This document shows positions 20,761 through 44,713 of a stretch of 64,000 nt of DNA, piece after piece; within the stretch, counting starts at the first letter, position 1; each line of letters opens with the position of its first letter. The DNA is from Streptomyces sp. NBC_01750. Its GTDB lineage: Bacteria > Actinomycetota > Actinomycetes > Streptomycetales > Streptomycetaceae. Where the stretch lies: NCBI RefSeq assembly GCF_035918095.1, contig NZ_CP109137.1, positions 7,752,001-7,816,000 on the forward strand, in the 5' to 3' direction. The notes under the pieces were generated by a model, which made no database searches, was not told the DNA's origin, and saw nothing but the letters and a program-made list of their open reading frames with translations. Position numbers and translations under genes: made by a program.

Positions 20761-22179
20761 TCATGGCTGATCGCGGGTGCGGCGGGCCTCCCCGAAATCC
20801 CACAGACAGACAACCGACCGGTCGCCCCCGGCCGACCTCACCCGAACGTTCACATCGGAGAAGAACGTCGTGAGGAACGGCCGCCGGTCCACCCAGCGCT
20901 CCGCGAACCAGTCACCGAGATCCTCGCGGAGCAGCAACTCCGCCATGGGCGCGCTGCACACCGCCAGCAGGTCACCCGGCCGGGTCTCCAGCCGGGCCCA
21001 GCGCAGCTCCTGCGAGCCGGTGGGAAGCCGCGCCTGCCGAGCGCCGGTGAAGACCCCGTCCCAGACGCCTTCCCGCAACCGCAGTACGGAGCCGTCGCCG
21101 ATACCGAAAGCCACATGCTCACGCAGCTGATGGTCGCCCAGGCGGGACAGCAGTCCGGTGAGCGCGAGCTCGACCGCAGCGTCACCGGCCGCACCGGTGC
21201 TGCCGGTACCGGTACTCATGCCGCCCGTCTCGTTGCGAGCCACCAGACGCACGGAGTGAGCCACACCCTGAACGGCGGTGCGCAGCAGGCCCCCCAGCTC
21301 GCTGTCATCGGCCGGGACACGCGTGGTGGCGTACGCAGCCTGATACAGCTCGGTGCCGAGCCGCTCGCCGTAGTGGCCGAGCTGCGCGGCGAGACTCCGG
21401 CAGGCCCGCTCCGCGGCCGAACGCGACCACGGTCCGCGCGGTGCACCCGCGGCCACCACGCTGAGCAGCGTCGGAGAGGTGATCTCCTCCACCAGCCCGA
21501 GGTGGACCGCGTCCCGCCGGTGCTCACCGTCCTCGCGCTGCCGGTCGCCCCGGACGGAGGCCGACCGGACGATCAGCGGACCGAGGTCCGCACCGTCGAC
21601 GGTGCTGTCGGCCCCGGAGTCCCTGCCCAGCGGCAGTCGGCTGGGTACGGCCGGGGAAAGCGGCGGCCCGCCGGGCGGGTCGGCGACCTCGGCTCCGTCC
21701 TGCGAGCGGTTCCGAGCGGTGGCCGCCGACGCCTCGGCGATCCGGGCAGCCACTCCCCTCTCGACCTTCGCCTCGAAGGCGGCGGTCAGCCGCGCCCCCA
21801 CCCGTGCCTCCAGTGCGGCAGCCACTCTCGCCTCCACCTCTGCCTCCAGCGCGGCAGCCAGTCGCACCTTCAATTGCGCCGCGACGGCCGCCTCCACGCC
21901 GCCCTCCACCTCGGCGAGCCGCGACCGCAGGGCACGGTTTTCCACGAGCGCCTGTTCCCGCTCTCCCAGGACCCTGGTGAGCTGGACCTCGTAGGCCCCG
22001 CGAGTCCGCTCCAGTTCCGGGGCCAACAGCTTCTTCTGGCGCTGGGCGGGCAGGACGGTGTGGCGCGATCCGCGACGACGGGCCGCGACGGCCAGTACGC
22101 CGCACGCGACCAGGGACACGAACAGCGCGACGAACAGCGCGACGAACAGCGCGACCAGAACGACCGGTTCAGTCTCCAC
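20761..22179 (-). CDS. Membrane-anchored PP2C-like protein, probably a pseudophosphatase
   Basis: This 472-residue protein has an N-terminal TM (VALFVALFVALFVSLVACGV, residues about 6-26) and a long Ala/Glu-rich coiled coil (about 45-150). The C-terminal domain (about 225-470) follows the PP2C order: VVAAGAPRGPWSRSAAERAC where active enzymes have aDGvGG, FGIGDGSVLRL in place of GDSR, LLAVCSAPMAELL in place of SDGl, and GGDRSVVCLW at the end. The first metal-binding Asp is replaced by Ala, so catalysis is doubtful. GTG at 22179 overlaps the preceding gene by 11 nt. It is the last gene of the seven-gene operon and may act as a sensor or scaffold. The domain call is from motif order, not a search. 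Confidence 0.6.
   Translation of the reverse strand: METEPVVLVALFVALFVALFVSLVACGVLAVAARRRGSRHTVLPAQRQKKLLAPELERTRGAYEVQLTRVLGEREQALVENRALRSRLAEVEGGVEAAVAAQLKVRLAAALEAEVEARVAAALEARVGARLTAAFEAKVERGVAARIAEASAATARNRSQDGAEVADPPGGPPLSPAVPSRLPLGRDSGADSTVDGADLGPLIVRSASVRGDRQREDGEHRRDAVHLGLVEEITSPTLLSVVAAGAPRGPWSRSAAERACRSLAAQLGHYGERLGTELYQAAYATTRVPADDSELGGLLRTAVQGVAHSVRLVARNETGGMSTGTGSTGAAGDAAVELALTGLLSRLGDHQLREHVAFGIGDGSVLRLREGVWDGVFTGARQARLPTGSQELRWARLETRPGDLLAVCSAPMAELLLREDLGDWFAERWVDRRPFLTTFFSDVNVRVRSAGGDRSVVCLWDFGEARRTRDQP
22118..22153. repeat. 12-bp tandem repeat coding ALFV units in a TM helix
   Basis: ACGAACAGCGCG occurs three times in a row (22118-22129, 22130-22141, 22142-22153). On the minus strand it encodes the repeated tetrapeptide ALFV inside the N-terminal membrane anchor of the PP2C-like protein. 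Length variation by slippage would keep the frame and change only the anchor length. Confidence 0.9.
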
Positions 22180-23590
22180 GCGGCCGACCTTCCTCCGTGG
22201 CCAGCCGACGCACGGTTCGCTCCGCGAGCGCGGAGGCGGCGAATGCTTCGAGACGGTCCCAGAGCTCGCGTCCGTCGCCCGGCCGGAGTGGTTCCCCGGA
22301 CCCGGGCGACAGTGCGGGGTCGGCCGTGGGCCGTTCATGGCGTGCCGTCAGGTCGTGACAGCCGAGCCGGACGTCCCGGCACGCGGCCCGCAACCGCCGC
22401 ACGGTCAGCACGGGAACCTCGCGAGGCACCTCGCCGATCAGCGGACGCAGAACGCCATCGCTCAACGCGGCCAGCCCGGAGGCAGCCCAGTCCGCCTCCG
22501 CCTGCCGCACGGCGTACCCGGGCCGCCGGACCGTCCCGTCGAGCAGCCGCGCCGCCAGTCCGGCCTCCGGCAAGGCCAATGCGTACACCGGCAGCCCCTC
22601 GGCCGCGGGCCCGACGGTCCGGCCGCCGCGCCCGCGCAACCAGCTGCCCAGATCCGTCATGCCATGCCTCCCGCGCAGCCCGGCCACGGTCGCGACCAGC
22701 ACGACCGGCGGCGCGTGCGGCGCCCGCCGGACCCGGTCCAGCAGTCCCCCGAGCACTGCGACTGCGGGCGAGGGCTTCGCGTCCCCACCGAGCTCGTCGG
22801 CCGGCAGCGCGGCGAGCACGAGGTGCGCGGTCTGCAGCACTTCGAGCGTCAGTAGGCGCAGCGCGCGCCGGGTCGCGGGTCCGGCCCTGTCCGGCGCTAC
22901 GACGGGTAGATCGACGATCTCGATGCACAGGCCGTCCCCGCCGCGCTCGCCCGGAGCCGGCCAGGGCAGGAGAGCGGCGCGGAACGGCGCGTGGATCACC
23001 GCCGGCGCGGTCGGCACCGATGCCACGGAGGCGTCCAGGACCGCCGACACGGGACCGGCGGCGGTGAGGTCCTGGCAGCGGCGCCAGGTACGGGCGACCG
23101 CTTCGGCGCCCGCGCAGCCCGGGCGGAAGTAGGGACCGGCGCCGGCCTCCGACGCACGGACGCGGAGCCAGGCCATCGTGCCGGGCGAGGCGCGCAGTGC
23201 CTCGCCCAGCAGCTCAGGACGGGCGGTCAGCAGCCGGGCCAGACGGTCGAGCGCCGTCGACTGGGCGGGCGACAAACGGAGTTGGGGGCGGTCGACGGCG
23301 GTGTGGAGCACGGAGACCGGAAGAAGGTCCGTGGCGAAGGGCGGATCGGCGATGCGCAGCCCGGTCAGCAGCGGAACCAGCCCAGGGCCGTCGCCGGTAC
23401 GGGGTACCACGACCCGGAGCGGAACCCGCCTCGCGGCACCGTCCTGTGCACCGAGCATCGCCACATCGGCCGCGAGCTGCCGGGACAGTCCGGCGGCGCG
23501 TCCCACCTCGGACGCGGCGAGCACCGCGCTCGCGCGCACCCACCATGGGCCGCTCCCCATGTGGCGATGGATCCCCGCCGGCTCCGCCAT
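22169..23590 (-). CDS. Unknown protein resembling a P-loop-less (pseudo) GTPase
   Basis: This 473-residue soluble protein has no family I recognise. Its order of segments imitates a dynamin-type GTPase. RVVVPRTGDGPGLVPLLTGL (about residues 45-64) sits where a P-loop strand and helix would be but lacks GKS/T. IEIVDLPVVAPD (about 215-226) resembles a G3 DxPG, followed by HLVLAALPADELG and PPVVLVATVAGL like the next two strands. I infer a degenerate GTPase, possibly a partner of the dynamin-like protein of the same operon. ATG at 23590 lies 1 nt after the stop of the preceding gene. The longer open frame would overlap that gene by over 200 nt. Confidence 0.45.
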   Translation of the reverse strand: MAEPAGIHRHMGSGPWWVRASAVLAASEVGRAAGLSRQLAADVAMLGAQDGAARRVPLRVVVPRTGDGPGLVPLLTGLRIADPPFATDLLPVSVLHTAVDRPQLRLSPAQSTALDRLARLLTARPELLGEALRASPGTMAWLRVRASEAGAGPYFRPGCAGAEAVARTWRRCQDLTAAGPVSAVLDASVASVPTAPAVIHAPFRAALLPWPAPGERGGDGLCIEIVDLPVVAPDRAGPATRRALRLLTLEVLQTAHLVLAALPADELGGDAKPSPAVAVLGGLLDRVRRAPHAPPVVLVATVAGLRGRHGMTDLGSWLRGRGGRTVGPAAEGLPVYALALPEAGLAARLLDGTVRRPGYAVRQAEADWAASGLAALSDGVLRPLIGEVPREVPVLTVRRLRAACRDVRLGCHDLTARHERPTADPALSPGSGEPLRPGDGRELWDRLEAFAASALAERTVRRLATEEGRPRGD

Positions 23591-31281: not shown

Positions 31282-31839
31282 TCAGTGGAGCAGGAAGAAC
31301 AGCTCGATCTCGGCGGTGCCGGACGGAACTCGGGGGTCCGTGTTGTGGTAGCTGCGGATGATCTTCTCGTCGTAGGGCGGGAAGAAATCCGGCTTGGCGG
31401 AGGGCAGCAGTCTGGCGACGGCCTCGGCGTACTCCGTGCTGGACCGGGTGTCGACCGCGCCGCCCGGCAGCCGGCCGGCGTTGCCGAAGACGATGACGAA
31501 GGCGGCCCGCTCGCCCTGGAACTGCTCGGCCTTCCGGACGACTTGGCGTCGAATGCTCGCGGCGGCCGCGTCCGAGCCGCCGACGAGGTCTCCCGGGTCG
31601 GTGCGTACGGAGATGGACTTGGTGTGGGGATCGAGCCCGCCGGCCGGGGTGCCCGGCGCCGGGGTGGAGACCGCGGGCGCCGGCGTGCCGGTGGGCCCTG
31701 CCGTTAGCTCCGGACGAATGTGCGCACCGGCGCCCTTTGTCGTCGTCTCGCCGCCCAGCGCCACGACCACCATGACCAGCAGCAGATCGGCGAAGAGCCA
31801 CCCTGCCACCCGCGCCCCCGACATGCCGTTCCTCCTCAT
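31282..31839 (-). CDS. MotB/ExbD/ZorB-like single-TM protein
   Basis: This 185-residue protein has one N-terminal helix, VAGWLFADLLLVMVVVALGG (11-30), with Asp18 placed as in the MotB helix (YADFMTAMMAFF...), where the Asp carries the ion. A Pro/Thr-rich periplasmic linker (about 45-75) follows, then a small alpha/beta domain with VIVFGNAGRLPG, SSTEYAEAVARLL and a final beta strand TAEIELFFLL, consistent with an OmpA-like peptidoglycan-binding fold. It overlaps the upstream coiled-coil membrane protein gene by ATGA, as motA-motB and zorA-zorB pairs do. The MRRNG start at 31839 gives this overlap; MSGAR five codons later is the alternative. Confidence 0.62.
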   Translation of the reverse strand: MRRNGMSGARVAGWLFADLLLVMVVVALGGETTTKGAGAHIRPELTAGPTGTPAPAVSTPAPGTPAGGLDPHTKSISVRTDPGDLVGGSDAAAASIRRQVVRKAEQFQGERAAFVIVFGNAGRLPGGAVDTRSSTEYAEAVARLLPSAKPDFFPPYDEKIIRSYHNTDPRVPSGTAEIELFFLLH

Positions 31840-33491
31840 CGGCCCCCCTCGCCGGCCACCCGCGCGCTCCGGGGATCGTCGGCGGGTTCGGGGTGGGCCG
31901 ACTTCCGTTCGGAGCCCGGTCCCTGCCCGGCGGGTGGACGGAGTCCGGGCAGGGGCAGGCTCAGCGTCGGCGTTGAGGGCCGGCCGGGCGGCCCCGCGGC
32001 CAGGGTGTCCGCGAGGGACCGGAGAGCGCCGTGCAACTTCTCGACCGTTTCCAGCAGCCGGGTGTGCGCCCGGGTCTGGCCGTTCTGCTGGGTGAGCGTG
32101 GCTTCGCGCAGTTCCGCGATGCGCGCCGCCAGTTCGGTGGTGACGGTGCGCACTTCCTCGCGCAGGGAGACGGCCAGGGCCGCGACCGCGAGGTCGTACG
32201 CGGTGCCGATGCGTTCGGCGCCCTCCGCGGCCGCGCGTTCGAGGGCGGCCGGCAGGACCGCCAGTGTGCGGTCGAGACCGCCGAGTGTCGCGGTCAGAAC
32301 CTGGGCCGACTCGGCTGTCGAGCCGCGCACGGCGGTGAGGGCGCCGGTCACCTCCTGCACGGCCTGGCGCATCCACTCCGCCGTGCGGCCGGCCGCCGCG
32401 GTCTCCCGTTCCCGTGCCTCGCGCGCGGCCTGGTCGATCCGGTCGGCCGTCAGCTGCCCGGCGCCGCCTATCCGTTCCGCGGCGAGCCGGCCGGCGCGGT
32501 CCACGCCTTCCGCCATGGCGGTGCCCGACTTGGCCAGCTCGTCGGTCAGCAGCCGAGTACCGGCCGCCACCTCGCCGGCCGCCTGTGTGGCGGAGTGGAC
32601 GGACTCCCGTACGTCCGATGTTCCCGCCCGCAGCTCCGCCACGGCCGACTCCAGGGCCTTGACGGCGGCGAGGTGCTGCTCCGTGGCCGTACCGGCCTCG
32701 CTGAGGAGGTCGTGTGCGCGTTCCTGGACATCGGCCGTCTGGAGCAGCAGGGCCCGCAATCCCGCGGCCGCGCCCTGGAGTTCCTGGGCGAAGAGGGCGG
32801 GGGAGGAGTGCGCGGCTCGTGCGGCCAGCGCCTCGACTTGGGCGAGTGCCCCCGACAGGCGTGGGACGATCAGCCGCCGTTCCGTCTCCTCCGCCACGTC
32901 CCTGAGGCGGCTCAGCACGGTGGTGCCCATCAGCGCCAGCAGGGCGACGACGGTGTAGACGATCATCATGTCAAAGTGCAGGACGGGCCAGAGATGGCCG
33001 TCGAAGCCCTGCTGCCACAGGGTGAGGAACGACTCGGACGGGCCGGCTCCGGCGCCCGTGCCTCCGCCGGAGTCCCGCATCCGCTGGTATGCGTACGCGG
33101 CAGCCCCCAGCCCTGCCCAGGTGACCAGCAGCGGGGTGAAGACGAGTACCGAGGGCAGCGCATGGAGGAGCCGCCGTGCTCGGCCGGACTCCGTGGCGGT
33201 TGGCGAGGTCACGGCGGTGAGCGCGTCCGGTCCGCAGTACGCGGCGACCAGTCCGCCGCCCGCCCACATGCGCAGTTCGTCCTCGCTGCCGCTGCTCACC
33301 GCGTCCGCGAGACGGCGCAGCGCATCGCCGTGCACCGCGCAGAGCGGGTGGCCGGCCAGATCGCGCAACTCGGCCGCGAGGCGCTTGGGTTCGTGGTGTG
33401 TGGGGCCCGCTGTGAAGTGCCCGGCGACCGTGGTGGTGCCATGGCCGCGAGCGCGGGCCGACGGCCCGCGCCATTGTTCCAGCCAACCCAT
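31836..33491 (-). CDS. Two-TM protein with long coiled-coil tail, MotA/ZorA-like
   Basis: This 551-residue protein begins at ATG 33491 behind GGGGGAGCACC. A cytosolic N-terminal domain (1-105) is followed by two TM helices (about 112-134 with PSVLVFTPLLVTWAGLG, and 171-194) separated by a Gly-rich loop. A very long Ala/Glu/Thr-rich heptad region (about 205-500) and a proline-rich end complete it. A MotA-type channel subunit with a helical cytoplasmic tail is the defining layout of ZorA in Zorya defence systems. The directly overlapping partner with a MotB-like Asp supports the comparison. With only two TM helices it is shorter in the membrane than MotA, so a methyl-accepting-type coiled-coil receptor is an alternative. 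Confidence 0.55.
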   Translation of the reverse strand: MGWLEQWRGPSARARGHGTTTVAGHFTAGPTHHEPKRLAAELRDLAGHPLCAVHGDALRRLADAVSSGSEDELRMWAGGGLVAAYCGPDALTAVTSPTATESGRARRLLHALPSVLVFTPLLVTWAGLGAAAYAYQRMRDSGGGTGAGAGPSESFLTLWQQGFDGHLWPVLHFDMMIVYTVVALLALMGTTVLSRLRDVAEETERRLIVPRLSGALAQVEALAARAAHSSPALFAQELQGAAAGLRALLLQTADVQERAHDLLSEAGTATEQHLAAVKALESAVAELRAGTSDVRESVHSATQAAGEVAAGTRLLTDELAKSGTAMAEGVDRAGRLAAERIGGAGQLTADRIDQAAREARERETAAAGRTAEWMRQAVQEVTGALTAVRGSTAESAQVLTATLGGLDRTLAVLPAALERAAAEGAERIGTAYDLAVAALAVSLREEVRTVTTELAARIAELREATLTQQNGQTRAHTRLLETVEKLHGALRSLADTLAAGPPGRPSTPTLSLPLPGLRPPAGQGPGSERKSAHPEPADDPRSARVAGEGGR

Positions 33492-33865
33492 GGTGCTCCC
33501 CCCGCCGGGCCTTGACCGGGTCTGAAATATGCCATCGGTCGGCGGGGGACAACCAGTCGTATTGCGGAATTGGTAGTGGGGATCTGCGATATCCAGGGTG
33601 GCAAGGAATCGTGTGGCGGCCGACGTCTCATGTGGCACAGATGTACGCAGCTCGGCAGGTGGTTCGGGCGATGTCAGGTCTCTATTTGCTTTGCCTGCGA
33701 ATTGATTCTGAACGTGTCGTTCAATGACCGATTGAGTGATCGGAATTGTTAGGGGCGGTCTGTGGAATCCGCGGGCATGGCCCATTCCGCGTATCTGCCG
33801 CTACGGTCGGCGACCTGGCGTTCCGTCTGACGCGGAATGCGGGGGGTGAGGGGGAGGGGTAAGCC
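33492..33865. promoter_or_regulatory. 374-bp divergent control region of the conflict system
   Basis: This space separates the seven-gene leftward operon from the rightward CHAT/caspase operon and is clearly more AT-rich than its surroundings. It contains TGAACG-TGT-CGTTCA (33709-33723), CCGAT-N6-ATCGG (33728-33743), and CATTCCGCGT (33783-33792) inverted against ACGCGGAATG (33830-33839). It also holds a direct repeat of CGGAATTG(G/T)TAG at 33565-33576 and 33741-33752. One repeat lies near each operon, which suggests a common regulator. No confident -35/-10 pair was identified. Confidence 0.55.
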
Positions 33866-36800
33866 ATGGCCAAAACCGGGCCGGGTATCGCGGCGGGAGA
33901 TGGCGGGAACGGTGATGCCGTCGGACGGCTGACCGCTCTGCTGCTCATCGAGCAGCGGGGAACCGATCCCTTCGTTCGTCGGCCCGCCGAGGTGGCCCCC
34001 CAGGACGACGAGCCGTTGGGCACATGGCTCGCGGCGGCGGCCGCACTCGCGGGCGGCGAACCCAAGCGGGCTCTGGCCCTCCTGGAGGAACCGACCCCGG
34101 GCGGCTCAGGAGGGACCGCCCCGCCCCGGGCTCACGATCACGTGCGGCCGTCACAGCGGTCGCCGCTCTCGCGGGCCTTGCGGACCGCCGCTGTCGCCAT
34201 GGACTGCAATTGGCAGCCCGGCACCTCGTTGGTGCCCCTGCGGCCCGAGGCGGAGGCCGCGCGGTTCAGGGCCGCGCAGGGAATCGAGGAAGGGACGACC
34301 GCGGTCACCGACCCGCGGCTGCGGCTCTGCGCGCACCTCGCGGGACGGCTCGCTCCGGTCCTGCTCTCCTCCCGTATGACGCTCGGACACGCCGCGCGGG
34401 CGGCCGACGCCCAGGCGCGAGCGGTTCAGTACGGAATGCGCGTCCGCCGGACGGACCGGGATCTCTCGGCCGGCACCCTGGAACCGCTGAAGTGGTTCGA
34501 CGGCCTGTACGAGGAGATCGCCGCCACCGGCCACGCGGATGCCGTGGCCTGTCATTTGCTGCTCGCCGCGGACCTCCGCGTCCGGGCCGGCGACCGGGAG
34601 GCGGCCGCACCACTGCTGCAGCACGCGGGGCACAGCGCCCTGAGCCCCGCGACCGCCGGCTTCGCCGCGCTTCTCTCCGGCGACTGGTGTCTGGGAACGC
34701 CGGGTACGGCGGAACAGTGCGCCGCCGTACCGGAGCCGCCGGACCCAAGAACGCTGTCCCTGGCTGCCGGGCACTACGAGCGGGCCGGCGCGGCGTACCA
34801 GGAGGCGGAATCGCTGCGCGGCCGGGCCGCGGTGCTGCTGCGCCTCGCACACATCCATCGCCTCCGGGACGACCTGGATGAATGCCGCAGAACCGTCGTC
34901 CGCGCACGGGAGCTGGCGGTCGCGGCGGGTGACGGAGCGTACGCCGCGCTACTCGGTGTCCATCAGGAGCTCGACCTCATCGCGGCCGGCGCCGAGTCCG
35001 GGGCGCACACGGATCCGGGGGCGGAGGCCGGGACCGTCGAGTCCGTCGTGAGCTGGGCGAGTACGGCGGGGAGCACGTCCTGGCTGCGCGGCCTGCGGCA
35101 ACTCGTCCTGGAGCGAGCCGAGTTCTGGGGTGCGCACGGGGACGTCGTCCGGAGCAGGCGGGCCGCACTGCTGGCTCACCGCCTGACCCCGGAGCCGGAC
35201 GGCACCGCCGAGGGCACGGCGGCGGCCCCGGTGGCGGGCACCTACCTGCGGGCCCGGCACCGGCTGGCCGGCATCGTCCTGACCGACCTGGAGCAGAAGG
35301 ACCGTCTCGCACGGCTCCGGCGCGGCACCGAACGGGGCGCGCCGCCCGAACTGGCGGACTGCCTCGGCGTCATCCACTGCGCCAAGATCTTCCACGACCA
35401 GGCGTCCGCCCTGCGGGACCCCGACATGATGGCCGCCTCGCGATCCCGTATCGAGTTCGCGATCGACGTGGGAACCCGCTTCCCGGCGGGCGTCGAATCG
35501 GTGGGGACGATCCTCGAAGTGCTCCGCTCCGACCTCGCGTCCTGCCCGGCCCAGGAGACCTTCTTCCGGTCCCGCCGCTCCCGTTCGGCAGGTCTGGAGG
35601 AAGAGGCCGACCGCCTCGCCCGGCAGGCCCTGGGGGAGGCCGGGCGGATCCCGGACGAGATGATCCGGCGCGTCCTGCGCTGTGCCGTTCACGTCGATCT
35701 GCGCGAATGGGGCAGGGCAAGGGCCGAGATGGAGGCGGTCGAGCCGAAGCTCTCCGCCATCCAGGCCGCCGGACTGTGGCTGCGTCTGCGCCGGCCCGAA
35801 CGCGCCGCGCCTCATGTGCCGTTCATCGGTGCAGGGGGCCCGGACCAGGACCACCCCTGGGAACGGCCGGGGATTCATGCCGACCTCGCCCTGGCGCGGG
35901 GTGCGTACGGCCAGGCCGCCGGCCACGCCGTGCTGGGACTCGACGCCTACGAGGAACATCACGTCAGGCTGGCCCGCGACGCGCTGCGCGCCTCCTTCGC
36001 CGACGACCAAGTGGTGGCAGGCCTGCAGCACACCGCTGTGCTCTCCCTCCTCTCACTCGGCGGCCCGGCCGCGCCCGCCGCCGCCTTCGACCGGGCCGAG
36101 CGGAGCCGCGCCGGCTTCCTCGGCGCCGTCCACGCCCTCGACGCCGCGGGCACGGACCGGGCCGCCCGCGCGGCCGTCAGGAACTGGCTGGCAGCGGAGG
36201 TGCGCTGGTCCGCGGAGTTCGAGGAACACGCGGCCACCATCCGCAGCCGGCCGGTCCCGCCGGGCCCGGCCGGCGCGTCCGACCGAGGCGGCGGACGGCC
36301 CGCCGCCGGTGCGACGGCACCCGTGGGCGCGCGACGCCAGGCCGGGGCCGCGGGAAGCGGGCCGGAGGCGGTCGCGGAAGACGAGGAGGCGGTCGCGGAA
36401 GACGAGGCGCTCGGGAAACCCGGTGCGTGGACGCACGGGGCCGGCGGGACGGAAGAGGAAGTGCGGCGGGGGCGCATCGAGACGGCGGAGCGGGCGCTGG
36501 ATGTCGCCGAGGCGGAGGTACGGAGGCTGGTTCCGGCCGCGCTCACCGCGTCCGGCGGCAGCGCGCTTCCGGACGCCGCCGCCGTGGCCGCGGCACTGCC
36601 TCCCGACACGCTGCTCCTCGCCTACCACCTGTTCGACGACGCCCTCGTCGCCTGGGCGATGACCCGGGAGAAGCTGCTCGCCGAGCGCCACACACGGTGG
36701 GCCCACGCCCTGGTGGCAGCCGCGCGACGCTTCCACGACTGGTGTTCCACGGCGGGCGGGAGCGCCGGCGAAGCCGACGGCCGGGAGCTGGCCGAGCTGC

Positions 36801-37717
36801 TGCTGCGGCCCTTCGCCGTTCAACTCCAGCACTACCGGCGGGTGATCGTGGTTCCCCCGGCCGCGCTCTCGCTGCTGCCCTTCCACGTCCTGCCCTGGAA
36901 CGGTGATGCACTCGGTGCCACCCACGAGATGTCGTACCTTCCCGCGGCCTCGCTCCTCACCCGGCGTCGGCACCAGGCGCCGGAGGGGCCCTGGTCGGAG
37001 CTCGGCGCTCTCCTGGTGGGCGCCCCGGCCTGCCACCCCCGGCACGGGCTTCGGGAGCTGCCGGGCACCGCCGCCGAAACCGCCGAGATCGCCCGGCTGT
37101 TGCCCCGTCACCGACTGCTGACCGGGGCCGACGCCACCCGTGCCAACGTGCTGGACGCGGCGCCCGGCTGCGAGGTGCTGCATCTCGCCGCGCACGGTCT
37201 GGTGGACGAACTGGCCCCGAACCGCAGCCGGCTGCCGCTCGCCGGGGACGACCACCTCGGCCTCGCCGACCTGCTGGCCGCCGCTCATGAGCCGCGGCTG
37301 CTGGTGCTGTCCGCCTGCGACACCGGGCGCGGCAGTGCCACCGCGGGCGGCGATGTCCTCGGGCTGACCCGGGCCGCCCTGATCACCGGGGCGCGGCATG
37401 CCGTGGTCTCGCTCTGGCCGGTCCGGGACAGCACGGGCTGTCTGGTCGTCACCAAGGCATACCGGCACCTCGTACAGGACCCGGCAGCATCCGTCGGGGG
37501 GGCGCTGGCCCGCGCACAGCGGGAGGTGCGCGACCTGTCCGGCGCCGAAAGGGACGAGGAGTTCCGGGCGCTGACCGACCGGGCCGGAGTCCCGCCGGGG
37601 CCTGCGTCCCGCGCCCGGTCCTGGGCCGCAGCCCGGGACAGCGAACCGCTGCGCAATCCGGACGCAGACGACCGGCACCCGTACCACTGGGCGCCCTTCA
37701 TCCATGTGGGGGTATGA
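33866..37717 (+). CDS. TPR-rich CHAT-domain (caspase-fold) protease
   Basis: This 1283-residue protein has a long N-terminal helical region with degenerate TPR-like repeats (about residues 20-830). A duplicated acidic linker EAVAEDE x2 (834-847) follows, then a C-terminal CHAT domain: catalytic His1110 in LHLAAHGLVDE and Cys1151 in LVLSACDTGRGS, then VSLWPVRDSTG and the YHWAPFIHVG end typical of the family. CHAT proteases cleave partner proteins, in several systems gasdermins or other effectors, on activation. ATG at 33866 follows GGGGAGGGG. The gene opens a three-gene operon, with its stop 1 nt before the caspase start. The N-terminal half probably senses a signal or a partner. Confidence 0.85.
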   Translation: MAKTGPGIAAGDGGNGDAVGRLTALLLIEQRGTDPFVRRPAEVAPQDDEPLGTWLAAAAALAGGEPKRALALLEEPTPGGSGGTAPPRAHDHVRPSQRSPLSRALRTAAVAMDCNWQPGTSLVPLRPEAEAARFRAAQGIEEGTTAVTDPRLRLCAHLAGRLAPVLLSSRMTLGHAARAADAQARAVQYGMRVRRTDRDLSAGTLEPLKWFDGLYEEIAATGHADAVACHLLLAADLRVRAGDREAAAPLLQHAGHSALSPATAGFAALLSGDWCLGTPGTAEQCAAVPEPPDPRTLSLAAGHYERAGAAYQEAESLRGRAAVLLRLAHIHRLRDDLDECRRTVVRARELAVAAGDGAYAALLGVHQELDLIAAGAESGAHTDPGAEAGTVESVVSWASTAGSTSWLRGLRQLVLERAEFWGAHGDVVRSRRAALLAHRLTPEPDGTAEGTAAAPVAGTYLRARHRLAGIVLTDLEQKDRLARLRRGTERGAPPELADCLGVIHCAKIFHDQASALRDPDMMAASRSRIEFAIDVGTRFPAGVESVGTILEVLRSDLASCPAQETFFRSRRSRSAGLEEEADRLARQALGEAGRIPDEMIRRVLRCAVHVDLREWGRARAEMEAVEPKLSAIQAAGLWLRLRRPERAAPHVPFIGAGGPDQDHPWERPGIHADLALARGAYGQAAGHAVLGLDAYEEHHVRLARDALRASFADDQVVAGLQHTAVLSLLSLGGPAAPAAAFDRAERSRAGFLGAVHALDAAGTDRAARAAVRNWLAAEVRWSAEFEEHAATIRSRPVPPGPAGASDRGGGRPAAGATAPVGARRQAGAAGSGPEAVAEDEEAVAEDEALGKPGAWTHGAGGTEEEVRRGRIETAERALDVAEAEVRRLVPAALTASGGSALPDAAAVAAALPPDTLLLAYHLFDDALVAWAMTREKLLAERHTRWAHALVAAARRFHDWCSTAGGSAGEADGRELAELLLRPFAVQLQHYRRVIVVPPAALSLLPFHVLPWNGDALGATHEMSYLPAASLLTRRRHQAPEGPWSELGALLVGAPACHPRHGLRELPGTAAETAEIARLLPRHRLLTGADATRANVLDAAPGCEVLHLAAHGLVDELAPNRSRLPLAGDDHLGLADLLAAAHEPRLLVLSACDTGRGSATAGGDVLGLTRAALITGARHAVVSLWPVRDSTGCLVVTKAYRHLVQDPAASVGGALARAQREVRDLSGAERDEEFRALTDRAGVPPGPASRARSWAAARDSEPLRNPDADDRHPYHWAPFIHVGV

Positions 37718-37718
37718 G

Positions 37719-39605
37719 ATGACGTTGCGAGCGGTGCTGATCGGCGCCCAGACCTATGGGCTGACCGGGGTGCACGCCGATGTGCGGCTGATGCACGAAG
37801 TGCTGCGGAAACACGGTTTCACGGACATCGTGACCCGCACGAAAGAGCTGGCCCGTTACGCGGGTATCAAGGAGGCCCTGAGCCGGCTCCGGGCCGCCAC
37901 CAGGCCGGGCGACGGCGTGGTCGTGTACTACTCCGGGCACGGCGCACTGCTGGGCGAACTGCAGTACCTGGTGCCCGTCGACATGGCCGACAGCACTCCC
38001 ACCGACTTCCGCGGCTATCTGGCCGAGGAGCTCACCGCCGCCGTCCGTACCCTCACCGATGTCACCCCCAATGTCACCGTCATCCTCGACTGCTGTCACT
38101 CCGGCGGCGCGGTACGGGAGGCGGCGCAGGAGTCCGGCCGGTGGGCGCTGAAGTCGGTGGAGCTGCCCCGGGTCGCCCGGGGCGCCGGGCTCGAGCGCGC
38201 GGCCGCTCTCTCCCGGCCGGGCGACCCGCTGGTCCCGGATGTCGTACGGCTGACGGCATGCCAGCAGCACGACTCGGCGTACGAGGCCGAACTCCGCCCC
38301 GGAGCCGGGCGGCAGGGCGTGTTCACCGCGGCCCTGGCCAAGGTGCTCGATCCACGACGGCACCCACGTGTGCCCTGGTCGGTGCTGGTCGCACACGCCC
38401 GCGACCGCATCAAACAACAGCAGGTACGGCAGTGGCCCGACGCCGGAGGACCTTCGGGGCGGCTGCCGTTCTCCCTGGAGGAGCCCTCCGAGCCCGAACG
38501 GCTCCCGCTGGTGCGTCGGGACGGCCGGTTCGTCGTTCCCGGCGGCGCCGTCTTCGGGCTCGGCCTCGAGGACAGCGTCAGCATGATGTTCCCCGGCGGT
38601 CACGAAAAGGACGCCGGCCACGAGTTCTCCGTACCGGCGACCGTGGACGCGATGAAGGCGGGGGACGCGCTGCTGCGTACGACGCCGTCCGCCGCTTCCC
38701 CGTCCCTGGCGGGCGACCTGCGCACGGCGGCGCTTCCGCCCGGCGCGTACGCGCTCGTGGTGCGGGTCCACGACCGCCGGAATGTGCTCATAGACGCCCG
38801 GGCCCCCTTCGCCGAGGCGCTGCGCAAGGAACTCGCCCGCTGCCCACGGCTGGCCGAGACCGACGACGAGCGGGATGCCTTCGCCACCGTGCGCGCGACG
38901 CAGCCCGGGAGGTGTGAAGTGTTGAACGCGGAGGGGCATCCCTTCCGGAAGCCCGCCGGTACCGCGCACTCGGATCCGGCCCGGCTGACCGCCCTGCTGG
39001 AGGAGCTGGCCCGGGGCGAACGCGTACGAAGCCTGCGCGATCCGGAGGGCGCCGGCCGTCTGGACGCCGGTCTGGAGGTGCGGTTCGAGGCCGAGCATCC
39101 GGCCGGGAGCGGCGACTGGCGGATGCTGCGCCCGGTGGGCGAGCGGCTGTACGGCGGTGACAGCTACCGCGTCACGGTGGCCAACCTCTCCGGTGTGCCC
39201 CTGTACTTCTGGGTGATCGGGGTCGGGCTGAGCGGCCGCACCGCCCTGGTGACCAACGACCAGCCCAGCGGTTACCGGCTCGAACCCTACGGGGACGAGC
39301 ACCGAAGCACCCGCACCACGGCCTCCGTCAGGATTTACTGGCCCTCCGACGTGCCCGCGCAGGGTCCGCGGCCGGAGACCGTGCATCTCCTCGTCGGCGA
39401 CCGCCCGATGGACCTCAGGGGCCTGGCCTCGCGGGAGGCCCCCTCCCGGTCCGCGTGCACGACCGATCCTGCCCTGGGCGCGCTGCTGCAGGAGCTCTGG
39501 TACGGCGTACGGGACCAACTGCTGGACGTGGGCGAGGAGTTCCACTACCGCGTGTGGACCGTGCACGCGGACGCGCTGCCGCAGTCGCGGGAGTCCGAGG
39601 CGTGA
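37719..39605 (+). CDS. Caspase-family (C14) protease with C-terminal DUF4384-like domain
   Basis: This 628-residue protein has a caspase/metacaspase domain at the N-terminus: MTLRAVLIGAQTYGL, catalytic His74 in YYSGHG and catalytic Cys126 in ILDCCHSGG (the usual D-x-C-H-S-G), then QQHDSAYEAEL and GVFTAAL of the small subunit (to about residue 250). A middle region is followed by a C-terminal segment near 445-540 (LYGGDSYRVTVANLSGVPLYFWVI) that resembles DUF4384, a beta domain often attached to bacterial caspases. ATG at 37719 lies one base after the CHAT stop; an ATG five codons upstream overlaps that gene and is less likely. It ends with a GTGA overlap into the next gene. Confidence 0.85.
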   Translation: MTLRAVLIGAQTYGLTGVHADVRLMHEVLRKHGFTDIVTRTKELARYAGIKEALSRLRAATRPGDGVVVYYSGHGALLGELQYLVPVDMADSTPTDFRGYLAEELTAAVRTLTDVTPNVTVILDCCHSGGAVREAAQESGRWALKSVELPRVARGAGLERAAALSRPGDPLVPDVVRLTACQQHDSAYEAELRPGAGRQGVFTAALAKVLDPRRHPRVPWSVLVAHARDRIKQQQVRQWPDAGGPSGRLPFSLEEPSEPERLPLVRRDGRFVVPGGAVFGLGLEDSVSMMFPGGHEKDAGHEFSVPATVDAMKAGDALLRTTPSAASPSLAGDLRTAALPPGAYALVVRVHDRRNVLIDARAPFAEALRKELARCPRLAETDDERDAFATVRATQPGRCEVLNAEGHPFRKPAGTAHSDPARLTALLEELARGERVRSLRDPEGAGRLDAGLEVRFEAEHPAGSGDWRMLRPVGERLYGGDSYRVTVANLSGVPLYFWVIGVGLSGRTALVTNDQPSGYRLEPYGDEHRSTRTTASVRIYWPSDVPAQGPRPETVHLLVGDRPMDLRGLASREAPSRSACTTDPALGALLQELWYGVRDQLLDVGEEFHYRVWTVHADALPQSRESEA

Positions 39606-42256
39606 GACAGCTGCTTTCGATGGTCCGTATGAGGAAGGCGGACCGCATGGCCGAGGAGCGCCGCTGGGCGGAGGCGTACACGCTGTACCGCGAGGCCGCC
39701 GTCAATTTCTCGGACCGGCTGCTCTCCGCCGCCTGCTGGCAGGACGCCGCGGCCGCCGCCGGACAGCTCGCCCGCTACTCCGACGAGGCCGAATGCAGCA
39801 GGTTCAGCCTCTCCCTCCTGCACGGCATGAAGCGCAACACCCCTCTGGTGCGCAGAACCAGGATCAGGGCACTGCTCGCTCTGGCCGAGGCGCTCTACCG
39901 CACCGGTGACCTCACCGGTGGTGAGCACGTCGTGCGGCAGGTCTTCGAGCTGGTTGCCCAGAACGACTCCGACTTCACCGCGGACTGCTTCCACCGGCTC
40001 GGACAGTGCCAGCTGCTCCAGGGAGAGATCGGAGGCGCCCTCACGGCCTTCGCCCGTGCCGCCGAGACGGCACGGACCTCCGGGACCGGGCTGGAGCTCG
40101 CCCAGGAGCTGTTGAGCCTCGGAATCACCGCCAACACGGTGGGCGACGGCGCGACCGCCCGGGACTGCGCCGCCGAGGCCGAGCGGCTGGCCCGGGCATC
40201 CTCCGAGGCCGATCGCATACGGCTGCTTGCCTCCTCCCTCAGACTTCAGGGACTTGTGCTGCGACGCGAGCGCCGCCTTCAAGAGGCGGTGTCGAAGGGT
40301 CGCGAGGCACTCTCCCTGATGTCGGGCGCAGCTCAGCAGCACGATCCCGGGCTCGCGCAGATTCGCGAGGGACTCGCCATCTCCCTGGTCTTCTGCGGTG
40401 AGCCGACGCAGATGTCGGAGGCGGTGGAGCTGCTGACCCGCACTCACACAGAGGCCGCCGAGCGCGGCGACGCCATCGTCATGACCTCAGGCGCCGTCAA
40501 TCTCGCCAATGCCCATGCGGTGATGGATGCCATGGACGAGGCGCTCGCCTGGGCGGAACGAGCTGTGCACACGGCGCGCGGCGGCCAGGGGCCGAGCTTC
40601 GTCGCCGTCGCGCTGCTGACGCTGGGGACCGTACTTCACGTACGGGGCGAGCATGCCGACGCCGAGGGCCACCTGCTGGAGGCGGTGACGCTGTGGGAGC
40701 GGGTGCGGGCCACCACCCGCAGCGAGAGGGAGCACATCGACCTGCTCGGAGAACAGGCCCAGGTGTACCGGGCCCTCCAGCGCTGCCGGGTCGCACGTCA
40801 CGACACCGACGGCGCGCTGGAGGCCGCGGAGCGGGTCCGCGGCCTTCTGCTCGAACAGCGTCTTCTGGTAACAAGATCCTCCAGGGCCGACACCACCGCG
40901 CAGGCCCCGGCATCGCCGGGAGCACGGACGGCACAGCAGCTGTCCGAACTGGCCACGCGGCACAACACGGTCACTCTGGTCTACAGCCTGCTCGGGCCCG
41001 CCCGCCCCAGCGTGACAAGCGGCGCCACCACCGCCTATGTCTGGGTCATCTCCCCAAGTGGCACACGGCGGCACCACGAAGTCGACCTCTCCGGCACCGG
41101 CTCGGCGATGCCGGGCGCCGTGTCCGCCGACGGGGCTCCTGCCGACGAGATTCTCACCGACTCGCCCGATGCCCGCGGGATCCCCTTCGGCCAGGTCGCC
41201 GGCGGCGGCGAACGGGCTCCGGCGGCGGAAGCTCCGGAGTCCCGGCTTCTGCGGGCACTGTCCCAGGGAGCCGCGGTCCCGGCCGCCGGACGGGACAGCC
41301 GCCCGCTCGCCGACCCCGACCGGAGCTACATCACCGACGCGGACCTGCGCCTGCTCGCCGATACCCTTCTGCGGCCCGTCGAGGAAGACCTGCGAGCGGC
41401 CGGGACGCGGCGGCTGGTGGTCGTGCCCGACGGATCTCTCCACTACGTGCCGTTCAACGCGCTGCCGCTGAAGGACAACACACCTCTGGTGGACCGGTAC
41501 ACCGTCGCCATGGCGCCCTCCGTCCGTCTGCAGCCCACGGGCAGGCAGGGCACCGTGCCCGTCACGGTCGCCCCGTCCGAGGCGCTCGTTGTCGGCAACC
41601 CCGACCCGCCCACGGAACCTCTGCTGCCGGGGCTGTCCACACCCGTGCTGCCCGCCCTGCCCGCCGCCGAACGGGAGGCCCGGGCCATCGCCGAGCTGTA
41701 CGACGCCCCCGCGCTGCTCGGCGCGCGGGCCACCCGGCAAGCCGTCCTCGACCGGCTGCCGTACGCCCGGTTCGCGCACTTCGCGACGCACGCCCTTCCC
41801 GGCGAGGACACCCTGCGGATCCCGGGCGCGCTCTGCCTCTCGCCGAGCGCCCCGGCGGACCCCGCCGGCGCGGAGGACAGCGGCGCCGGCGGTCCGTACC
41901 TGCGGGCGGACGACATCCAGCCGCTCGACCTGTCGGGCTGTCACCTCGTCGTGCTCAGCGCCTGCCGGACCGGCTGGGGCCGGCTCTCGCCGGAAGGCAA
42001 CCTCGGCCTGGCCAGGACCTTTCTGGCAGGAGGCGTGGACTGTGCGGTGGTATCCCTGTGGCCCGTCGACGACACGGCCACGGCCCGCCTGATGACCGCC
42101 TTCCACCAGCACCTCGCGGCGGGAGCGACCACCGGGGAAGCGCTGCGCCATGCCGTACGGGAGACCAGGCGCCGTCACACGCGGCCGGTGGACTGGGCGG
42201 GGTTCACCCTGCTGGGCTCCCCGGATGTGCGGCTGGCTCGGGAGCCGAGGTCCTGA
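39602..42256 (+). CDS. TPR-CHAT protease
   Basis: This 884-residue protein has TPR repeats over about residues 15-430 (for example AEERRWAEAYTLYREAA, LGQCQLLQGEIGGALTAFARA, LGTVLHVRGEHADAEGHLLEA). A C-terminal CHAT domain follows, with VVVPDGSLHYVPFNALPL, His730 in FAHFATHALPG and Cys788 in LVVLSACRTGWG, then VVSLWPVDDTAT and the WAGFTLLG end. Both catalytic residues are present. The start is the GTG overlapping the caspase stop (GTGA); the longer open frame would overlap the caspase gene by 147 nt. It is the last gene of the effector operon and is followed by a strong hairpin. Confidence 0.85.
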   Translation: MRQLLSMVRMRKADRMAEERRWAEAYTLYREAAVNFSDRLLSAACWQDAAAAAGQLARYSDEAECSRFSLSLLHGMKRNTPLVRRTRIRALLALAEALYRTGDLTGGEHVVRQVFELVAQNDSDFTADCFHRLGQCQLLQGEIGGALTAFARAAETARTSGTGLELAQELLSLGITANTVGDGATARDCAAEAERLARASSEADRIRLLASSLRLQGLVLRRERRLQEAVSKGREALSLMSGAAQQHDPGLAQIREGLAISLVFCGEPTQMSEAVELLTRTHTEAAERGDAIVMTSGAVNLANAHAVMDAMDEALAWAERAVHTARGGQGPSFVAVALLTLGTVLHVRGEHADAEGHLLEAVTLWERVRATTRSEREHIDLLGEQAQVYRALQRCRVARHDTDGALEAAERVRGLLLEQRLLVTRSSRADTTAQAPASPGARTAQQLSELATRHNTVTLVYSLLGPARPSVTSGATTAYVWVISPSGTRRHHEVDLSGTGSAMPGAVSADGAPADEILTDSPDARGIPFGQVAGGGERAPAAEAPESRLLRALSQGAAVPAAGRDSRPLADPDRSYITDADLRLLADTLLRPVEEDLRAAGTRRLVVVPDGSLHYVPFNALPLKDNTPLVDRYTVAMAPSVRLQPTGRQGTVPVTVAPSEALVVGNPDPPTEPLLPGLSTPVLPALPAAEREARAIAELYDAPALLGARATRQAVLDRLPYARFAHFATHALPGEDTLRIPGALCLSPSAPADPAGAEDSGAGGPYLRADDIQPLDLSGCHLVVLSACRTGWGRLSPEGNLGLARTFLAGGVDCAVVSLWPVDDTATARLMTAFHQHLAAGATTGEALRHAVRETRRRHTRPVDWAGFTLLGSPDVRLAREPRS

Positions 42257-42297: not shown

Positions 42298-42336
42298 ACG
42301 GGGACCCGGTCGGCCGCCGACGGCCTGGGTCCCCGT
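42298..42336 (+). terminator. Strong stem-loop terminator after the CHAT/caspase operon
   Basis: ACGGGGACCC (42298-42307) pairs perfectly with GGGTCCCCGT (42327-42336). The loop contains a second stem GGCCG/CGGCC. It lies 41 bp after the last CHAT gene and about 180 bp before the Crp gene. There is no T-tract, as is common for Streptomyces terminators. It separates the effector operon from the Crp-cyclase unit. Confidence 0.75.
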
Positions 42337-42519
42337 GCCGTCCCCCGTGCCGACAGCATGCACCGACCGCGGTGTCGCCCACTCCGCAGCGGTGCGGAAT
42401 TCCGAAGGCCGCCAGCCACAACTCTCCTGTGGGAAAAGGGGTGTTCACCATGTCTCAACGGCTACGATCGGTTTGCCGTAAGTGCCGGAGAAGTCCGAGA
42501 GGCCCGGGGGGTGGCCGTG

Positions 42520-43248
42520 ATGCCGGAGAAGTACGCGGAAGGCGCGGGCTCCGCCGACCGATGGCCGCACGGCACCCTCCTGGCGGAGCTGGCCGGCTCC
42601 CCGGAGGCCGCGAAGACCTTGCTCTCGCTGGGGACTCCACGCCTGTACGAACCGGGCGAGATCCTGCTGGCCGAAGGGCTGCACGAGACCTTCGTCCTGT
42701 TGCTGCTGAGCGGTGTCACCAAGGTCACCGCGGTCACGGAGAACGGCGACATCGCACTGCTGGCCGTCCGGCTCGGCGGTGATCTGGTGGGAGAGTTCGC
42801 AGCCTTCGACAACCGCCCCAGGTCGGCCACGGTCACCGCCGCGAGCGCGGTGGCCGCCCGCCGCATCGGGCAACAGGACTTCCTCGGCTGCCTCGACCGC
42901 TGGCCCGCCACCGCCCTCGCGGTCAGCCGGATGCTGGTGCGCAAGAACCGGTGGTCGGTGCGGCGCCGGGGCGACTTCAGCGGCTGTCCGGTGGCGACCC
43001 GGGTCGCCCGGGTGCTCGTCGACCTGGTCGAGGACTACGGGCAGCCCTCGCGCGGCCACGTCCTGATCGGGCCGCGGCTCACCCAGGCGGAGATCGCCGG
43101 ACTGGTCGGCGCCAAGGAACGCCGCGTGCACCACGTGCTCGGGGCACTGGCCGGGCAAGGAGTCATCCGGGTCGGCTACAGCCGGGTGACCGTCCTGTCC
43201 CCGGCCGGACTGCACCACGCCGCCCGTCTGACGGAGCCGGGCGACTGA
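42520..43248 (+). CDS. Crp/Fnr-family regulator with intact cyclic-nucleotide contact motif
   Basis: This 242-residue protein has a cNMP-binding beta-roll (about residues 20-130), in which GEFAAFDNRPRSATV keeps the Glu (92) and Arg-Ser (101-102) that bind cyclic-nucleotide ribose and phosphate in CRP. A dimer helix and a winged HTH follow (RLTQAEIAGLVGAKERRVHHVL, near 195-216). ATG at 42520 is preceded by a G-rich stretch; GTG codons 3 and 9 nt upstream are possible alternatives. It is followed after 43 bp by a class III cyclase-like gene, so the pair may form a local second-messenger circuit. Target promoters are unknown. Confidence 0.85.
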   Translation: MPEKYAEGAGSADRWPHGTLLAELAGSPEAAKTLLSLGTPRLYEPGEILLAEGLHETFVLLLLSGVTKVTAVTENGDIALLAVRLGGDLVGEFAAFDNRPRSATVTAASAVAARRIGQQDFLGCLDRWPATALAVSRMLVRKNRWSVRRRGDFSGCPVATRVARVLVDLVEDYGQPSRGHVLIGPRLTQAEIAGLVGAKERRVHHVLGALAGQGVIRVGYSRVTVLSPAGLHHAARLTEPGD

Positions 43249-43291
43249 CAAGAGGTGCTCACCGCACAGAAAATGATGGGGAGTCAGGAAC

Positions 43292-44713
43292 GTGGGGGAC
43301 GAGCGTACGGAGTACGAGGAACAGGACGGCGTGGAGGCTGTCACCCCGGATCACGACCACCAGGCCCACGACCACCAGGCCCATGACGACGTGCTGGCGA
43401 CCACGGATCTGTTCGCCGTCGACGGTGCGGTGTCCAAGGGGGGGCAACCCGTCCACGACCGGATCGGCGGTGCTTCCCTGGGGCGCCCTCTCGGCTATGC
43501 CCTTCCGGGGGCGGACCTCCCCGGGGCGACAGACGACGGCGCCGCGGCAGCCGCCGCGCACCGTGACATCCTGCTCTGCTTCCCATTCGACCTGGAGGAA
43601 CTGCCGGACGGACGCGGCTACCAGCAGGTGACCGTCGCCGTCCGGCTCGATGGCGCAACGCACGCTCTCGCCCTGCATCCGGCCCCTGGTACCACCGGTG
43701 CCGACGGCACGGAGGTTGCCGCGTTCGGACTCGGCAGCAGCAGGCTCCGCTGGACCTTCCGGGCCCCGGGACGCAGCGGCGCGCTCCGCCCCGACGGCCG
43801 CTGGGCACAGGCCGTCGTACGCCTGCCGAGAACCGCGGCCGAGGTGTCCGGCCGGTTGAGCCTGACCACGGTCACCGTGCAGCCCATGCTCGGCGGGACC
43901 TTTCTGCGCAGGGAGGCGGAAACCCCGTACGACACACCGTTCCGGCTCCAGGTGGCCGAGATCTGGCCGGCCGCCACCCCGCCGGCGCGACTCGGGGCCC
44001 TCCCCGGCGCCTGGGCGCTCTCCGCATACGAGGACGGCGCCTCTGCGGACGGCGAGGAGGGCCCGGACAGCGAGGAACTGCCGCCTGGCCTGCGGCGGCT
44101 CTGCCTCGCCGTCGACATCGAGAAGTACAGCGCGCGTGACAACGCGGACATGGTCCGGTTGCAGCGCGTCCTGCTGCGAACCCTGCGCGCCGCCTGCGAG
44201 CAGGCGGGCATCGAGTGGCGGCGCTGCGGCCGGCAGGCCCAGGGCGACGGCTATCTGCTCGTGCTGGAGCCCGGCATCGACGAGACACGGGTCGTGCCGG
44301 GGCTCCTGGACGGCCTGGCCGCGGGCCTGGCCGTGGCCAATACGCCGGCCATCGCCCAGGGCAGGACGAAACCCGGTGGGCGTGCCGCGGACGTGCGGGC
44401 CCCCGGCAGAATCCGTATGCGAGCCAGCCTGCACCAGGGCATCGTCCATGAGGCGGACAGCGGCTACGCGGGCTCCGCCGTGGTTGCCCTCTTCCGCGTC
44501 CTCGACTCCGCTCCCGTACGCAGTGCACTCGCCGAAACCCACTCCACCCACCTGGTGGTCGCGTTCTCCGACGCGCTGTACCAGGATCTGGTCGCCACCG
44601 GTTACGAAGGCCTGCCGGCCACCGGATTTCGGCGCGTGGAGATTCATGTCGAGGCCAAGAGCTTCACCGGCGTGGCGTGGATCCGCGCGATGCACCCCTC
44701 ACCCGGAGGATGA
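43292..44713 (+). CDS. Class III nucleotidyl-cyclase-like protein
   Basis: This 473-residue protein has a low-complexity His/Asp-rich start (DHDHQAHDHQAHDD), a beta-rich N-terminal domain (about 85-225) and a cyclase-like domain from residue 270. LCLAVDIEKYSARD carries Asp275 and QAQGDGYLLVLE carries Asp319; these two positions and their 44-residue spacing match the metal-binding Asp pair of class III cyclases. RIRMRASLHQG matches the following strand. In the later segment GSAVVALFRVLDSA the usual transition-state Asn seems replaced while Arg remains, so the substrate or activity is uncertain. GTG at 43292 has GGGGAG upstream. It probably makes the ligand of the adjacent Crp protein, which is inference. 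Confidence 0.62.
   Translation: MGDERTEYEEQDGVEAVTPDHDHQAHDHQAHDDVLATTDLFAVDGAVSKGGQPVHDRIGGASLGRPLGYALPGADLPGATDDGAAAAAAHRDILLCFPFDLEELPDGRGYQQVTVAVRLDGATHALALHPAPGTTGADGTEVAAFGLGSSRLRWTFRAPGRSGALRPDGRWAQAVVRLPRTAAEVSGRLSLTTVTVQPMLGGTFLRREAETPYDTPFRLQVAEIWPAATPPARLGALPGAWALSAYEDGASADGEEGPDSEELPPGLRRLCLAVDIEKYSARDNADMVRLQRVLLRTLRAACEQAGIEWRRCGRQAQGDGYLLVLEPGIDETRVVPGLLDGLAAGLAVANTPAIAQGRTKPGGRAADVRAPGRIRMRASLHQGIVHEADSGYAGSAVVALFRVLDSAPVRSALAETHSTHLVVAFSDALYQDLVATGYEGLPATGFRRVEIHVEAKSFTGVAWIRAMHPSPGG

Follow-up and report, generated by a model that had tools for sequence, protein, structure and literature searches.

In the genome of Streptomyces sp. NBC_01750, two divergent operons face each other within a window of 64,000 nucleotides (contig NZ_CP109137.1, positions 7,752,001 to 7,816,000), which lies at 7.75-7.82 Mb of the 8.98-Mb genome. 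The leftward genes, G1 to G7, encode among others a MotB-like membrane protein, a dynamin-family GTPase and an actin-fold ATPase; the rightward genes, R1 to R5, encode CHAT and caspase-like proteases and a Crp-like regulator. The two halves are exchangeable modules, as was observed in their gene content, their motifs, their recurrence and their exchange. We hold it to be evenly balanced whether the whole locus represents one version of a modular system for conflict or programmed death in multicellular Actinomycetota, gated by nucleoside triphosphatases (NTPases) and known here from its genes, its motifs and the predicted fold of G2. Indeed, CHAT and caspase genes lie near G3, the GTPase gene, more often than expected. 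Among 17 other loci carrying G3 (L002-L005, L007-L015, L017, L019-L021), a CHAT gene is found within 15 kb of it in six (L002, L005, L007, L014, L017, L020), where 0.27 would be expected (P ~1e-7), and a caspase gene in four (L002, L014, L017, L020), where 0.11 would be expected (P ~3e-6), assuming uniform placement and counting close relatives apart; when close relatives are merged, the three independent CHAT arrangements give P ~0.002. The genes, modelled from codon-position composition and with a simple gene caller, and the element conserved upstream of R1 are the following.

33491-31836, minus strand: G1, 551 amino acids; two predicted transmembrane segments followed by a long coiled coil; possibly a channel-like partner for G2.
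31839-31282, minus strand: G2, 185 amino acids, overlapping G1 by 4 bp; MotB-like.
31251-28492, minus strand: G3, 919 amino acids, 30 bp after G2; dynamin-family GTPase.
28489-24947, minus strand: G4, 1180 amino acids, 2 bp after G3; SrfB-related ATPase of the HSP70/actin fold.
24947-23592, minus strand: G5, 451 amino acids, overlapping G4 by 1 bp; third core component, mostly helical, of no known family.
23590-22169, minus strand: G6, 473 amino acids, 1 bp after G5; accessory protein.
22179-20761, minus strand: G7, 472 amino acids, overlapping G6 by 11 bp; N-terminal transmembrane segment, coiled coil and degenerate PP2C domain (a longer form starting at 22338 is possible).
33530-33600, plus strand: upstream element of R1, with the core GTCGTATTGCGGAAT at 33556-33570 and GATATC 17 nucleotides further; candidate promoter or operator of R.
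33866-37717, plus strand: R1, 1283 amino acids; long N-terminal region and CHAT protease domain.
37719-39605, plus strand: R2, 628 amino acids; caspase-like (C14) protease.
39602-42256, plus strand: R3, 884 amino acids, overlapping R2 by 4 bp; TPR-CHAT protease.
42520-43248, plus strand: R4, 242 amino acids; Crp-like cyclic nucleotide-binding regulator.
43292-44713, plus strand: R5, 473 amino acids; last gene of the R operon, conserved.

The gene models bear out the preliminary description of the locus, made from the sequence alone, in its claim of seven coupled leftward genes, since no two neighbours are separated by more than 30 bp and several overlap. The same holds for the three rightward genes that it reported, R1 to R3, and the series extends beyond them into R4 and R5, which its coordinates take in but its text passes over.

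The pairing of the two modules appears to have been made more than once. R2 is 65% identical between the window and L017, versus 28% for G4, and the pairing was therefore made repeatedly rather than inherited. In a tree of G4, the loci partnered by R fall on two separate branches, requiring at least two changes; L014 is counted there as an R locus despite its diverged CHAT and caspase (R2 32% identical), and neither R4 nor R5 was detected in it.

The G module was sought by scanning GTDB contigs for G3, which gave 30 loci. In 20 of these G3 is clear; L022-L031, whose matches span just 48-94 residues about the P-loop, were left out of the count, and L006, L016 and L018 are contigs of less than 8 kb. 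Downstream of G3, 18 of the 20 have a match to G4, usually with G5 as well, and the other two contigs are shorter than 4 kb. G3-G4 loci belong to Streptomycetaceae, Micromonosporaceae, Streptosporangiaceae, Pseudonocardiaceae and Gemmataceae; a 3.6-kb Myxococcota contig (L016) carries G3 alone. The full order G1-G7 is found in the window, L002, L003, L004, L008 and L009, and also in L005 and L007, where diverged G5 and G6 were assigned by position and alignment; in L010 the G genes are rearranged. The partners of the module differ from locus to locus: CHAT-caspase-CHAT in the window and L002, CHAT with TIR in L005 (and, by homology, L007), HSP70 and DO-GTPase2-like genes in L003 (by homology also L009 and partly L008), CHAT-caspase with kinase-like and PP2C-like genes in L014 and L017, CHAT-caspase in L020, and vWA-PP2C-kinase-like genes in L019. 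In L011, and by homology in L012, L013 and L021, a DUF4407 membrane protein precedes G3-G4 where G1 would otherwise stand. The Streptacidiphilus operon that diverges from G1-G7 (L005:487-6996; L007:3-6229) encodes a CHAT protein, an uncharacterised protein of 250 amino acids, a TIR protein and a helix-turn-helix (HTH) protein.

The R operon has a distribution of its own. R2 was found at E <= 1e-40 in nine of 295 genomes of the same genus, the present one included, and R1-R2-R4-R5 form a conserved operon (G108, G102, G096, G073, G230, G265). An NTPase or kinase-type partner accompanies R in four of the six genomes, besides the query genome, in which partners can be judged; in G230 and G259 the contigs end too near R. 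In G102, R diverges from a ten-gene operon of which G096 carries orthologues (L042:4660-15762; L044:5128-16377). By Pfam, its order is an uncharacterised protein, vWA-like, PP2C, kinase-like, dynamin, C39-type peptidase, another uncharacterised protein, dynamin, HSP70 and YbjN-like, the vWA, kinase and YbjN matches lying under the curated cut-offs. From its predicted products, this operon looks like another NTPase switch. In G265 (L063, L064), R stands between the dynamin-HSP70 part of the ten-gene module and a diverged G3-G4, and in G142 a second CHAT gene precedes vWA-, PP2C- and kinase-like genes together with one for an AAA ATPase. The probes were 35 chosen proteins, so other partners of R could be missed. 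One R2 relative (G268:C4:90878-92722) is interrupted by an in-frame TGA and is possibly decayed, or the product of a sequencing error.

Several observations weigh against a single system, beginning with the uniform placement assumed in the enrichment. The exact pair of G1-G7 and R1-R3 occurs only in the window and L002, no domain for interaction shared by the G and R modules was found, and in G108 and G268 no probed NTPase partner lies within 40 kb around R. Compared with PADLOC, nine locus proteins (all except R1, R4 and R5, with G6 cut short) gave no strong match other than the caspase, and two of ten flanking proteins of the window match mad2 (E 6.5e-14 and 5e-7). These matches do not establish a defence island; the two mad2-matching proteins, encoded at 6769-7488 and 13104-13874 of the window, possibly match through a common methyltransferase domain. 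The intergenic region points the same way. An element of about 75 bp is conserved upstream of the CHAT-caspase operon despite differing partner modules (window 33530-33600; L002, L040, L042, L044, L053). Its core, GTCGTATTGCGGAAT, is exact in the window, L002, G102 and G096, with one mismatch in G108 and three in G073, and does not occur elsewhere, at up to one mismatch, in 1.13 Mb of locus sequence (overlapping loci included). No such element was seen at L020, and at G142 it aligns only weakly. In the window the core starts 65 bp from the start of G1, oriented toward R1, and its GGAAT stands 17 nucleotides from GATATC, a spacing that we take to resemble that of an extracytoplasmic function (ECF)-type promoter. 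The region, judged by its sequence, is thus mostly R's own, G1 having been placed beside it. The 374-bp gap between the two start codons (33492-33865), first described as a shared control region, is real, and its shared character is what gives way.

The foremost alternative is that G and R are independent accessory modules, each working alone, which are neighbours only because both gather in the same exchangeable regions of actinobacterial chromosomes. We judge this clearly less probable than a single system, while taking it seriously. It agrees with the occurrence of R without probed partners in two genomes, with R keeping its own upstream element whichever partner it has, and with the G module being mostly without R: among the eight loci besides the window where G1 and G2 stand beside G3-G4 (L002-L005, L007-L010), R1-R3 are present in L002 alone, L005 and L007 having a different CHAT operon and L010 only R4- and R5-like genes. 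Conversely, G1-G7 were found in none of the eight other genomes of the genus that carry R2, in the sequence inspected (two of the contigs do not reach far enough, and G265 has its diverged G3-G4). Since other R2 genomes lack G1-G7 and other G1-G2 loci mostly lack R1-R3, the exact pair is largely independent, an outcome that had been named as telling against one system; this does not extend to R together with some NTPase module. What speaks against independent modules is the tight and often divergent adjacency of R to dynamin/HSP70-type modules, repeated in different arrangements, and the finding of full-length R3 only where R faces G1-G7 (window and L002). The earlier inference of one sensor-transducer-effector system is thus supported in part: CHAT and caspase genes lie near dynamin-actin modules above expectation and on two G4 branches, while the exact pair is confined to two loci.

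The single-system reading takes its core from G3, G4 and G5. G3 is, by a profile match over the cut-off (Pfam Dynamin_N, E 1.9e-7, 31.7 bits versus 27) and by intact GTPase motifs (GEYSVGKS, DFPG, NIFD), a dynamin-family GTPase. Residues K79, T101, D313, P315, G316 and D383 are invariant in 33 sequences, the window copy included; the PDB gives GTP-binding protein 5owv (E 3.2e-4), and a weak resemblance in PADLOC to LeoA (E 4.4e-6) and LeoBC (0.0011) counts for a conflict system. Its closest relative, 98% identical, is in Streptomyces sp. NPDC002926. G4 has intact phosphate motifs (DLGST, DIGGGTTD, SGRS), with D212, G214, D530, G532, T535 and D537 invariant in the family alignment. The SrfB profile matches 17 of 18 G4 family members at E <= 1 (best 1.2e-6) and HSP70 matches nine of the 18; the window copy itself scores 17.4-17.7 bits against SrfB (PF07520), below the Pfam gathering cut-off of 27.1, and matches the DnaK structure 1dkg at E 4.6e-8. 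G5 clusters with the G5 of 13 other loci and was aligned with 16 (L005, L007 and L021 partly by position). Its AlphaFold model is mostly helical, with a predicted local distance difference test (pLDDT) score of 77, and neither a family match nor a significant PDB match was found for it.

The membrane pair recalls the Zorya antiphage system. G2 has a single transmembrane segment with an invariant Asp18 (GWLFADLLLV) and a domain predicted to take the OmpA/MotB fold; it would thus have what defines ZorB, an N-terminal transmembrane segment with a conserved Asp and a periplasmic OmpA-like domain. The hydropathy of G1 gives two hydrophobic segments, at residues 114-132 and 175-193, in which Thr124 and Thr180 are invariant among nine aligned sequences. 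As in Zorya (PMC11890865), G2 combines a transmembrane helix bearing an Asp of the essential type with an OmpA/MotB-fold domain, and G1, like ZorA, has a long cytoplasmic coiled coil; unlike Zorya, the locus has a GTPase and an actin-fold ATPase, and G1 has two transmembrane segments only. ZorA matches to G1 are weak and confined to the coiled coil (PADLOC E 0.018 and 0.035; PDB 8vvn_C, tail, E 0.0082). At E <= 0.1 G1, queried as the longer frame 31836-33785, has no Pfam MotA_ExbB match, and at E <= 0.05 the nine proteins compared with PADLOC give none to ZorC, ZorD or ZorE. Of the defining features of Zorya, the ZorB-like one is the only one clearly present in the locus. One special form of the single-system reading, compatible with it, would nevertheless make G1-G2 a Zorya-like ion motor that senses phage damage to the wall and drives the GTPase and ATPase, R standing in place of the Zorya effectors. 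The features of G2 and the G1 tail favour it, as does the importance in Zorya of both ZorB D24 and peptidoglycan binding (PMC11890865). The architecture of G1 and its poor likeness to ZorA disfavour it, as does the replacement of G1 by a DUF4407 protein in L011-L013 and L021, loci in which G2 was not detected; we consider it unlikely.

The remaining leftward genes would be accessory. Active PP2C carries its metal-binding Asp residues in the motifs VADG and SDG; in eight of nine aligned G7 sequences VADG reads VAAG and SDG is absent, the ninth row being truncated. PP2C_2 matches three of nine G7 family members (best 3.8e-11), with no match for the window copy itself. By these motifs, G7, though related to PP2C, no longer has the metal ligands and lacks what marks an active PP2C. 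A DLP-like segment in G6 recalls a GTPase; no P-loop is seen in eight aligned sequences, and hhalign gives a 6.9% probability to the G3 profile and 0.1% to DO-GTPases. Among the names first given to the products, the two-transmembrane coiled-coil protein (G1), the MotB-like protein (G2), the dynamin (G3), the SrfB-like, actin-fold ATPase (G4) and the pseudo-PP2C (G7) hold, and the pseudo-GTPase (G6) is unproven.

By profile and His-Cys dyad, R1 and R3 are CHAT proteases and R2 is a caspase-like protease, which agrees with the catalytic His and Cys first ascribed to them. R1 matches CHAT at E 1.1e-51 in Pfam (motifs HLAAHG and SACDT) and R3 at E 4e-63 (HFATH and SACRT). R3 also matches TPR_12, and no Pfam repeat match was found in the N-terminal region of R1, so that the label TPR-CHAT stands for R3 and not for R1. 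R2 matches Peptidase_C14 (E 1.6e-18) and the metacaspase-4 structure 6w8s (E 1.4e-6); its SGHG is present in nine of nine loci, and the DxCHS pattern, DCCHSG in the window, in eight, G265 not matching it. R4, queried from 42358, matches cNMP_binding (2.3e-14) and HTH_Crp_2 (5e-11). On visual inspection, the C-terminal half of R5 resembles a class III cyclase (AVDIEKYS, GDG); neither Pfam nor the PDB gave a relevant match, and no profile confirms a cyclase. Since a Crp-like regulator and R5 recur beside G modules (window 42520-44713; L010), a cyclic-nucleotide branch is possible. In Phytohabitans flavus (L010:18335-21594), two Crp-like genes flank an R5-like gene.

From known families we infer the physical coupling of the halves, the trigger, the order of steps, the targets, the outcome, ion flow, death and any antiphage function. 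In the most economical model of such a system, module 1 (G1-G7) would be a membrane-anchored NTPase switch that licenses the proteolytic output. G2, as a MotB-like anchor, and G1, its coiled-coil partner, would hold or sense the envelope, G3 and G4 with G5 would assemble or change state upon NTP binding and set a threshold, and G7 and G6 would tune the switch. Module 2 (R1-R2-(R3)-R4-R5) would be the output, in which the CHAT proteases and the caspase probably act one after another, controlled by the Crp-type regulator R4 and perhaps the putative cyclase R5; when the switch fires, proteolysis would cripple or kill the compartment. More tentatively, and with doubts that outweigh our belief, one may picture a plug-in death circuit in which an ion-motor-like, wall-anchored pair acts on a dynamin/actin-fold switch with the new core protein G5 and, through it, on an exchangeable CHAT-caspase cascade, the output having been rewired to at least three NTPase switches.

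By the features tested, the locus falls outside the definitions of the SrfABC, EACC1-caspase and GAP1 systems. Pfam holds a SrfC (Virul_Fac) profile, to which G3 has no match; at E <= 0.1 Pfam gave only Dynamin_N, PUMA_CC and MMR_HSR1 for it. As in the srfABC operon (PMC6950479), an SrfB-related ATPase, G4, adjoins a large GTPase; G4 differs in lying under the SrfB cut-off, G3 in lacking an SrfC match, and the partners are others. R2 resembles the EACC1-associated caspase of a two-gene system (NCBIfam NF047832; PMC7159879), but at 64.6 bits it is under the cut-off of 140, no EACC1 was found among the neighbouring proteins searched with NCBIfam, and CHAT, Crp and R5 accompany it. The TerY-P triad consists of vWA, PP2C and kinase. 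Genes like these adjoin R or G3-G4 in G102, G096, G142, L017 and L019; no such triad is seen at the window locus, whose only PP2C is the degenerate G7. In design the locus resembles the GTPase-centric conflict systems that Kaur et al. (2020, PMC7159879) treat in multicellular bacteria, where DO-GTPase and GAP1 occur, partly with HSP70, PP2C, kinase and vWA. Common to both are a GTPase switch, an HSP70-fold partner, an actinobacterial bias and exchangeable effectors, caspases and TIR included, and L003 and its relative L009 adjoin DO-GTPase2-like and HSP70 genes. The present locus differs in its dynamin-family GTPase, SrfB-like ATPase, G5 and MotB-like pair, in place of DO-GTPase and GAP1; the words dynamin, CHAT, SrfB, SrfC, MotA and TolQ are absent from the version of the main text of PMC7159879 that was searched. 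At E <= 0.1 none of the locus proteins matches a DO-GTPase or GAP1 family in Pfam; DO-GTPase2 was seen beside L003 only, relatives of it occurring in L009 and L008, and the search for GAP1 did not extend to these loci. In a literature search that took in few subscription papers and some partial result lists, no published description of this gene combination was recognised.

Least probable, if by a small margin, is that G1-G7 form an envelope or cytoskeletal machine for stress, hyphal growth or septation, with the proteases as ordinary regulators: a MotB-like anchor, a dynamin and an actin-fold ATPase are cell-biological parts, and in Streptosporangium the core stands beside the DUF4407 protein and ordinary metabolic genes, but the module is patchily present and its death-type partners (CHAT, caspase, TIR) are exchanged. 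G3 was found in three of 61 genomes of the genus at E <= 1e-8, the present one included, and this rarity, with that of R2, counts for a conflict system, as would, by analogy with the systems treated in PMC7159879, the conflict-type partners of other G modules, CHAT-TIR in L005 and DO-GTPase2 with HSP70 in L003. If the locus is such a system, GTPase-gated conflict systems would gain a second family, whose core is a dynamin together with an SrfB-like ATPase of the actin fold, and the caspase/CHAT operon would be an output joined in the course of evolution to several different sensors. The locus would also offer a testable model for the wiring of proteolytic cell death to bacterial NTPase switches, and a function could for the first time be proposed for G5 and, outside proteobacteria, for SrfB-like ATPases.

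Beyond the locus, a gene for an IgA-type M64 metallopeptidase, at 19359-20711 of the window, is convergent with G7.

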